Assembly (NCBI RefSeq): GCF_900093605.1
Contig: NZ_FLYE01000001.1
Span: 310,001 to 374,000, forward strand
Direction: 5' to 3'
Length of the DNA stretch: 64,000 nucleotides
Source: Candidatus Terasakiella magnetica
GTDB taxonomy: Bacteria > Pseudomonadota > Alphaproteobacteria > Rhodospirillales > Terasakiellaceae
This document shows positions 8,921 to 10,126 of this stretch, piece after piece. The translations under genes and the position numbers were made by a program. Position 1 is the stretch's first letter, and the number at the start of each line of letters is the position of its first letter. Below the pieces are notes generated by a model. The model had not been told where the DNA came from, did no database searches, and saw nothing but the letters and a program-made list of their open reading frames with translations.

Positions 8921-8997
8921 GGGCGTCTAGCTCAGTTGGTTAGAGCACCTCGTTTACACCGAGGGGGTCGGGAGTTCGAATCTCTCGACGCCCACCA
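8921..8997 (+). tRNA. tRNA-Val (anticodon TAC), copy 1
   Basis: Acceptor stem GGGCGTC pairs with GACGCCC, followed by A and an encoded CCA. The anticodon arm CCTCG-TTTACAC-CGAGG gives UAC, which reads GUN valine codons. The length is 77 nt with CCA. Confidence 0.97.
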
Positions 8998-9033
8998 TTC
9001 AAATTTGAATGTTCAAGAAGTTGTTAAGATGAA

Positions 9034-9110
9034 GGGCGTCTAGCTCAGTTGGTTAGAGCACCTCGTTTACACCGAGGGGGTCGGGAGTTCGAATCTCTCG
9101 ACGCCCACCA
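9034..9110 (+). tRNA. tRNA-Val (anticodon TAC), copy 2
   Basis: This 77-nt gene is identical to copy 1 and follows after a 36-base AT-rich spacer. Both are probably cotranscribed and ended by the hairpin at 9116. Confidence 0.97.
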
Positions 9111-9115
9111 TCTTC

Positions 9116-9146
9116 AAAAAGCTGTCTTTTAAGACGGCTTTTTTGT
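9116..9146 (+). terminator. Intrinsic terminator of the tRNA-Val operon
   Basis: AAAAAGCTGTCTT pairs with AAGACGGCTTTTT (one T-G wobble) around TT and is followed by TTTTGTTTTT. Confidence 0.88.
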
Positions 9147-9389: not shown

Positions 9390-9418
9390 TTGACAGTAGT
9401 TACGCGGTGATCTAAAAA
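9390..9418 (+). promoter_or_regulatory. Probable promoter of tRNA-Asp
   Basis: TTGACA (9390-9395), a perfect -35 box, is followed after 17 bases by TAAAAA (9413-9418), 17 bases before the tRNA. The transcript may continue into the structured region and nuoA. Confidence 0.5.
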
Positions 9419-9435: not shown

Positions 9436-9512
9436 GGGGGTGTAGCTCAGTTGGTTAGAGCGTCGGCCTGTCACGCCGAAGGCCGCGAGTTCGAGTCTCG
9501 TCACTCTCGCCA
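9436..9512 (+). tRNA. tRNA-Asp (anticodon GTC)
   Basis: Acceptor GGGGGTG pairs with CACTCTC using two G-U wobbles, discriminator G, encoded CCA ending at 9512. The anticodon arm TCGGC-CTGTCAC-GCCGA gives GUC. D-arm and T-arm (GTTCGAG) are canonical and the length is 77 nt with CCA. Confidence 0.96.
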
Positions 9513-9516
9513 TTCT

Positions 9517-9663
9517 ATTGCCGGATGGCCCATAACGATATAAATGGGTTAACGGCGCAACGCAGGTGTAATTACAAAGCACCTAACGATCAAAGGGGAG
9601 ATCGCTTTTAAAAAGAAAATGTTGCGACGTTAAATCACCGGAATTCTCTTTAGAAATTTTTTT
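9517..9663 (+). ncRNA. Candidate structured RNA or nuo leader
   Basis: Nested helices can be drawn by hand. P1 pairs ATT(G)CCGG (9517-9524) with CCGGAAT (9638-9644). P2 is CCCAT/ATGGG (9529-9533 with 9544-9548). P3 starts at the next base and pairs 9549-9561 with 9621-9633, 12 of 13 bases. Inside P3 lie P4, AGGTG/CACCT (9564-9568 with 9580-9584), and P5, CGATC/GATCG (9587-9591 with 9600-9604), whose loop is AAAGGGGA. A small TTCT/AGAA stem and seven T follow (9657-9663), as in a weak terminator. It lies 4 bases after tRNA-Asp and about 100 bases before nuoA. I do not recognise a known riboswitch. It could be an attenuator or a small RNA. Confidence 0.4.
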
Positions 9664-9760
9664 GTTTTATGAAGAGCCTTCGTTCGGATTGCTCCATTAG
9701 CCTTTCATTTTTAGATAGGTCTATCGGGTTTAATTCGCAAGGCATTAAAGGAACGCTACA

Positions 9761-10126
9761 ATGGAAGCACTCCTGCAAGAATATCTACCGATCATTATTT
9801 TCCTTGGCATTGCTATCGCGATCGCCGGGATTATGATCGTTGCACCGTTTATCGTGTCGCCACAGCGCCCCGATACGGAAAAGAACTCCGCATTTGAATG
9901 CGGCTTTGCAGCCTTTGAAGATGCACGTACAAAATTTGATGTACGTTTCTACTTGGTTGCCATCCTTTTCATCATCTTCGACCTTGAAGTCGCTTTCTTG
10001 TTCCCGTGGGCTATCTCACTGGGCAATATTGGTGTGTTTGGTTTTTGGTCAATGATGGTGTTCCTTGGTGTTCTCACCATCGGTTTCGTTTATGAATGGA
10101 AGAAAGGAGCTCTGGAATGGGAGTAG
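9761..10126 (+). CDS. nuoA: NADH-quinone oxidoreductase subunit A
   Basis: NuoA is a small membrane subunit of proton-pumping complex I at the junction of its peripheral and membrane arms. The 121-aa protein has three hydrophobic segments (about 8-32, 64-84 and 90-112). The conserved loop with ECGF near residue 46 is present ([15 protein letters not shown]), followed by [19 protein letters not shown]. It opens a 14-gene operon. AAAGGA precedes the ATG by about 7 bases. The last codons overlap the nuoB start. Confidence 0.97.

Follow-up and report, generated by a model that had tools for sequence, protein, structure and literature searches.

What lies between the tRNA-Asp gene and the complex I operon of Candidatus Terasakiella magnetica, and to which transcript does it belong? 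In the window, the whole stretch of 64,000 nucleotides that was analyzed, tRNA-Asp precedes nuoA on the same strand, and the first-pass annotation had proposed an organized, multi-helix RNA in the spacer between the two genes. We compared this spacer with its counterparts in the genus.

Architecture and conservation of the spacer RNA

The order tRNA-Asp, spacer and nuoA is found in five of the six genomes of the genus, located through relatives of nuoA; in the sixth assembly, nuoA was not found. A tRNA-Val pair lies upstream of tRNA-Asp in four of those five genomes, and in the window it consists of two tandem tRNA-Val(TAC) genes (8921-9110) followed by an intrinsic terminator (9116-9143). Six helices, P1 to P6, are encoded in the spacer at 9521-9641. 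The features of the locus are as follows.

9390-9418, + strand: putative tRNA-Asp promoter by consensus, TTGACA (9390-9395), 17 nt, TAAAAA (9413-9418)
9436-9512, + strand: tRNA-Asp (GTC) with CCA encoded, from ARAGORN and Rfam
9521-9641, + strand: structured RNA, P1 to P1, from covariance model matches in five genomes, covariation and an alignment z of -11
9521-9524, + strand: P1 5′ arm CCGG, outermost helix, pairing with 9638-9641; C-G becomes U-A in two genomes
9528-9533 and 9544-9549, + strand: P2 hairpin GCCCAT/ATGGGT, paired in all five genomes
9549-9561, + strand: P3 5′ arm TTAACGGCGCAAC, 13 positions with one purine-A mismatch (G9555.A9627)
9564-9569 and 9579-9584, + strand: P4 hairpin AGGTGT/GCACCT, every pair of which covaries
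9587-9591 and 9600-9604, + strand: P5 hairpin CGATC-AAAGGGGA-GATCG, with the conserved purine loop L5 (9592-9599)
9605-9608 and 9612-9615, + strand: P6, small hairpin CTTT/AAAG, with variants in the relatives
9621-9633, + strand: P3 3′ arm GTTGCGACGTTAA, partner of 9549-9561
9638-9641, + strand: P1 3′ arm CCGG, on the same covariation basis as the 5′ arm
9642-9669, + strand: tail AATTCTCTTTAGAAATTTTTTTG, a weak hairpin and U-rich tract, from sequence conservation
9747-9752, + strand: putative nuoA Shine-Dalgarno sequence AAAGGA, within the conserved 5′ block GGCATTAAAGGAACGCTAC, from the alignment
9761-10126, + strand: nuoA, gene 1 of the complex I operon, from ORFs and homologues; the genes that follow are taken as nuoB to nuoF from their ORF translations

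P3 encloses P4, P5 and P6, and P2 is situated between the 5′ arm of P1 and P3. The individual helices vary in distinct ways among the five genomes. In P2, both bases of all six pairs vary in the hand alignment, and those of five pairs in the model alignment. The mismatch of P3 is G.A in three genomes and A.A in one, and is not formed in one. In P5, the loop AAGGGGA is nearly invariant while the stem changes. P6 occurs as CUUU/AAAG, ACUU/AAGU or CUGU/ACAG in the relatives and is not formed in G002.

The sequence from the window, taken alone, folds only modestly better than chance, with a z of -2.03 against dinucleotide shuffles (8 of 200 as good) and of -2.56 for the core (3 of 200 as good), and a single-sequence reading is insufficient as proof. 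The element is therefore judged to be real on comparative evidence and not on the fold of the lone sequence. The mean pairwise identity of the five aligned spacers is ~56% over the element, and each sequence folds on its own to one common plan. In the model-fitted alignment of the five genomes, both bases have changed in 19 of the 35 pairs; the shuffle control gives 9.1 ± 2.1 such pairs and never reaches 19 in 500 shuffles, and sliding the partner by 1-3 columns lowers the count to 1-5 pairs. Since this alignment was fitted to the structure, two additional checks were made, with a plain MAFFT alignment and with a held-out model. First, consensus folding of the MAFFT alignment gives a z of -11.0 for the element; of three flanking controls, the spacer downstream of it scores -0.9, the stretch upstream of the tRNA 0.3 and the beginning of nuoA -2.5. 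Second, a four-genome model with shortened loops, built without G001, recovered the G001 element from the whole genome with 41 bits and an E value of 2.8e-6. Regarding the strand, G.U pairs outnumber A.C mismatches by 13 to 1 on the + strand in a hand table, which favors this strand, although it is also the one on which the helices had been selected. The z of only -2 to -2.6 for the lone window sequence would suit the chance folding of an ordinary intergenic spacer; however, covariation, held-out detection and the control regions all contradict this explanation, whose probability we regard as negligible.

The element is a real, new and genus-restricted structured RNA family. The helices named in the first-pass annotation, including the 13-position arm with one mismatch and the outermost CCGG, all lie where it had placed them; the compensatory changes strongly support its proposal of an organized RNA between these two genes, tRNA-Asp and nuoA, and a covariance search with homologous nuoA upstream regions returns the same fold in five genomes.

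Transcription of the joint and function of the element

In each of the five genomes, the element starts 5-11 nt past the tRNA-Asp CCA, which leaves it without room for a promoter of its own. Ahead of tRNA-Asp, the block CATTTACTTGACAG...ATCTAAAA is kept in most of the five genomes and is degenerate in G005. A pattern scan of the coding strand between the nuo-linked tRNA-Asp and nuoA was negative for terminator-like sites in each of the five genomes. In the second tRNA-Asp operon of each genome, a strong terminator, made up of a hairpin and a T-run, follows the CCA immediately. A consensus scan of the genus spacers found no sigma-70-like site above 8 of 12, a scan that non-consensus promoters would escape. 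In several other alphaproteobacterial lineages with long spacers, TATAnT-type -10 boxes occur 64-155 nt before nuoA. Co-transcription is favored by the missing room for a promoter, the conserved promoter block of the tRNA, the lack of a terminator and the lack of a consensus nuoA promoter. Judged from sequence, a single tRNA-Asp/structured RNA/nuo transcript from which the tRNA is cut out is probably the most economical reading.

With confidence that is evenly balanced, we favor the reading that the element is a conserved, genus-specific RNA of this putative transcript that acts in cis as the nuo leader. Transcription would start at the tRNA-Asp promoter (TTGACA/TAAAAA), and the polymerase would pass the tRNA and the six-helix RNA and continue into nuoA, since nothing there would stop it. 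An RNase E-like cut 3′ of the tRNA would free the tRNA and turn the structured RNA into the 5′ end of the nuo mRNA, where it would act most simply as a stabilizer and regulator of that mRNA. The closing P1, the long P3 with its internal purine-A mismatch and the P4/P5/P6 junction would display the AAGGGGA loop, whose partner may be a protein, a ligand or a different segment of the leader itself. However, the distance between the element and nuoA varies from ~71 to 130 nt and most of this stretch is not conserved, which is unexpected for a dedicated expression platform; a search of the five genomes for alternative pairing with the nuoA ribosome site gave nothing consistent; the conserved U-rich tail could be a transcript end; and non-consensus promoters or factor-dependent termination escape pattern scans.

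The tail is conserved in sequence (AATTCTCTTTAGAAATTTTTTTG ... GTTAAAAGCC in the relatives) without a conserved structure. A hairpin before the T-run, as the first-pass annotation had reported, does exist (TTCT-CTTT-AGAA, 9644-9655), but its energy in the window is only about -0.1 to -0.3 kcal/mol; across the relatives it ranges from 0 to -3.9 kcal/mol, and the hairpin is absent in G004. Of the functions suggested in that annotation, a leader of nuo is favored by the missing terminator and consensus promoter, an sRNA processed from the tRNA-Asp transcript is a possible alternative in view of the fixed position beside the tRNA and the conserved U-rich tract, and a classical attenuator does not fit a hairpin that is weak or missing. 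The tail may be a candidate transcript end, an RNase site or an Hfq site. Inspected by eye as a sigma-70 promoter, it was rejected, with no -35 match worth the name and a spacing of 13 nt in G005. In G005 (L013 1864-1926), a large part of the spacer from the element to nuoA is lost while the element and tail are kept, and a hairpin CCTTGCG/CGTAAGG stands directly before the ribosome site.

The main alternative, to which we give tentative weight, is that the element is a trans-acting sRNA that corresponds to the leuZ 3′ETS of E. coli and arises as a 3′ trailer when tRNA-Asp is transcribed, with nuo transcribed from a non-consensus promoter of its own. Its 5′ end would be freed by a cut behind the CCA, most transcripts would end in the U-rich tract (9657-9669), and the AAGGGGA loop, being exposed, would pair with or titrate C/U-rich targets. 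The anchoring of the element to the tRNA and not to nuoA agrees with this, as do the conservation of the U-rich tract right after P1 but not of the spacer beyond it and the retention of the element and tail in G005. The precedent is 3′ETS-leuZ of enterobacteria, which RNase E releases from its tRNA precursor by cutting 15 nt downstream of the tRNA (PMC5222698). Like that RNA, the element lies directly 3′ of a tRNA, has no promoter of its own and is predicted to be released by a cut a few nucleotides behind the CCA; unlike it, the element has six helices and two junctions with covariation and no clear terminator, and the nuo mRNA follows. Against this reading, the hairpin before the U-tract is not a canonical terminator at 0 to -3.9 kcal/mol and with its loss in G004, no recognizable nuo promoter lies behind the element, and the single copy per genome always stands before nuoA.

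It is rather unlikely, although conceivable, that the element represents a new class of sensory leader that would couple the production or maturation of tRNA-Asp, or a redox or metabolite signal, to the expression of complex I through a single tRNA/RNA/nuo precursor. That the nuo leader contains a ligand-binding riboswitch or an attenuator appears improbable. Here, P3-P6 would form the aptamer, and the tail UUCUCUUU would be the switch by pairing with L5 (AAAGGGGA), by pairing with the nuoA Shine-Dalgarno sequence (AAAGGA) or by forming the weak hairpin before the U-run. The multi-branched fold with its conserved loop and junction has an aptamer-like layout, and L5 can pair with the tail over 6-8 bp in four of the five genomes, a pairing used by the full-length minimum-energy fold of G005. 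However, this pairing is broken in G004. The partners tried for L5, namely the tail, the nuoA Shine-Dalgarno sequence and nuoA codons 3-5 (ACUCC), can each pair with it, but none of them ranks first in every one of the five genomes, and no covariation was seen among the five for any of these pairings. In addition, no terminator/antiterminator is conserved among the five genomes, and the element is confined to one genus, unlike most riboswitch classes. The element resembles orphan structured leader RNAs and riboswitch candidates in its multi-branched, conserved and covariation-backed fold upstream of an operon, and it differs from them in its occurrence in one genus, the tRNA ahead of it on the same strand and the lack of an identifiable expression platform.

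Relation to known families

That the element is a divergent copy of a known family (6S, yybP-ykoY, YrlA or another Rfam family) or a CsrA-binding leader is very improbable, as the Rfam, 6S, YrlA and CsrA checks all contradict it. The resemblances behind this possibility are the GGGGAG string in the P5 loop, which presumably recalls the yybP-ykoY Mn riboswitch (RF00080), and the GGA in the same hairpin loop, which presumably recalls CsrA sites. Up to E=10, no Rfam 15 match overlaps the P1-P1 core, either in the window or in four relatives, so that no Rfam family explains the region, and no RF00080 covariance match lies over the element in the five genomes. The likeness to Mn riboswitch loops noted in the first-pass annotation is not supported beyond the GGGGAG string: the GGGGA run is the hairpin loop of P5, which differs from the yybP-ykoY layout, and the context is complex I and not a metal transporter. 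6S RNA (RF00013) is similarly non-coding, multi-helix and of similar size, but its branching pattern differs; it has no match at the locus, and a true 6S RNA is encoded elsewhere in all six genomes of the genus. Weak matches to YrlA (Y RNA-like) in four genomes fall on the tRNA-Val pair, probably via the tRNA-like part of the model. A CsrA-regulated leader was rejected, with PF02599 absent from the six genomes and the control genomes positive. A sub-threshold match of the plant miRNA MIR5291 to the AU-rich tail (E 0.25) was put down to chance. Searches of the literature brought up no account of an RNA in the tRNA-Asp/nuoA spacer.

Distribution and meaning of the tRNA-Asp/nuo joint

Within the genus, the element is present once per genome, always ahead of nuoA. 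The five-genome model gave no convincing match outside the genus among 317 genomes of the order and 385 of the class, in a quick first pass that weak matches may escape. Laxer filters gave no match in 40 close relatives. Neither the first nor the second model detected the element at any of 105 nuoA loci from other lineages, and the tRNA-Asp/nuoA spacers of 20 of these loci, searched with filters off, yielded no homologous RNA in other families. Several candidate matches were rejected. The DNA look-alikes L007 and L008 elsewhere in the genomes lie inside coding genes and are due to chance, the match in G027 (E 0.115) falls on an inverted repeat that resembles a terminator and lies next to another gene, and the class-wide matches at E ~0.01 are as numerous as expected by chance and have no tRNA nearby.

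The gene order itself extends much further. In most of the Rhodospirillales-like loci that were examined, and in several from other alphaproteobacteria, tRNA-Asp lies upstream of nuoA, with spacers of 37 to 444 nt, and the order is far older than the structured RNA. Outside the genus, the most similar nuoA (83%) is found at L111 and L112, where the tRNA-Asp/nuoA spacer is of equal length (249 nt) and contains a conserved block of its own (GCGAAAAAAACC ... GAGGCATACCTTAAACGCCTACCGTT) that is unrelated to the structured RNA. Eleven other alphaproteobacterial lineages have only 37-76 nt between the end of tRNA-Asp and nuoA; this suggests transcription of complex I from a tRNA promoter there, with read-through as the simplest arrangement.

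The kind of RNA described here, a structured leader or tRNA-trailer RNA, is known; its position inside a putative tRNA/complex I transcript is unusual. Because the tRNA-Asp/nuoA order is widespread in alphaproteobacteria and the spacers are short in some lineages, whether the complex I operon is driven by a tRNA promoter is a general question. In the genus studied here, the joint between tRNA-Asp and nuo is filled by a structured RNA.
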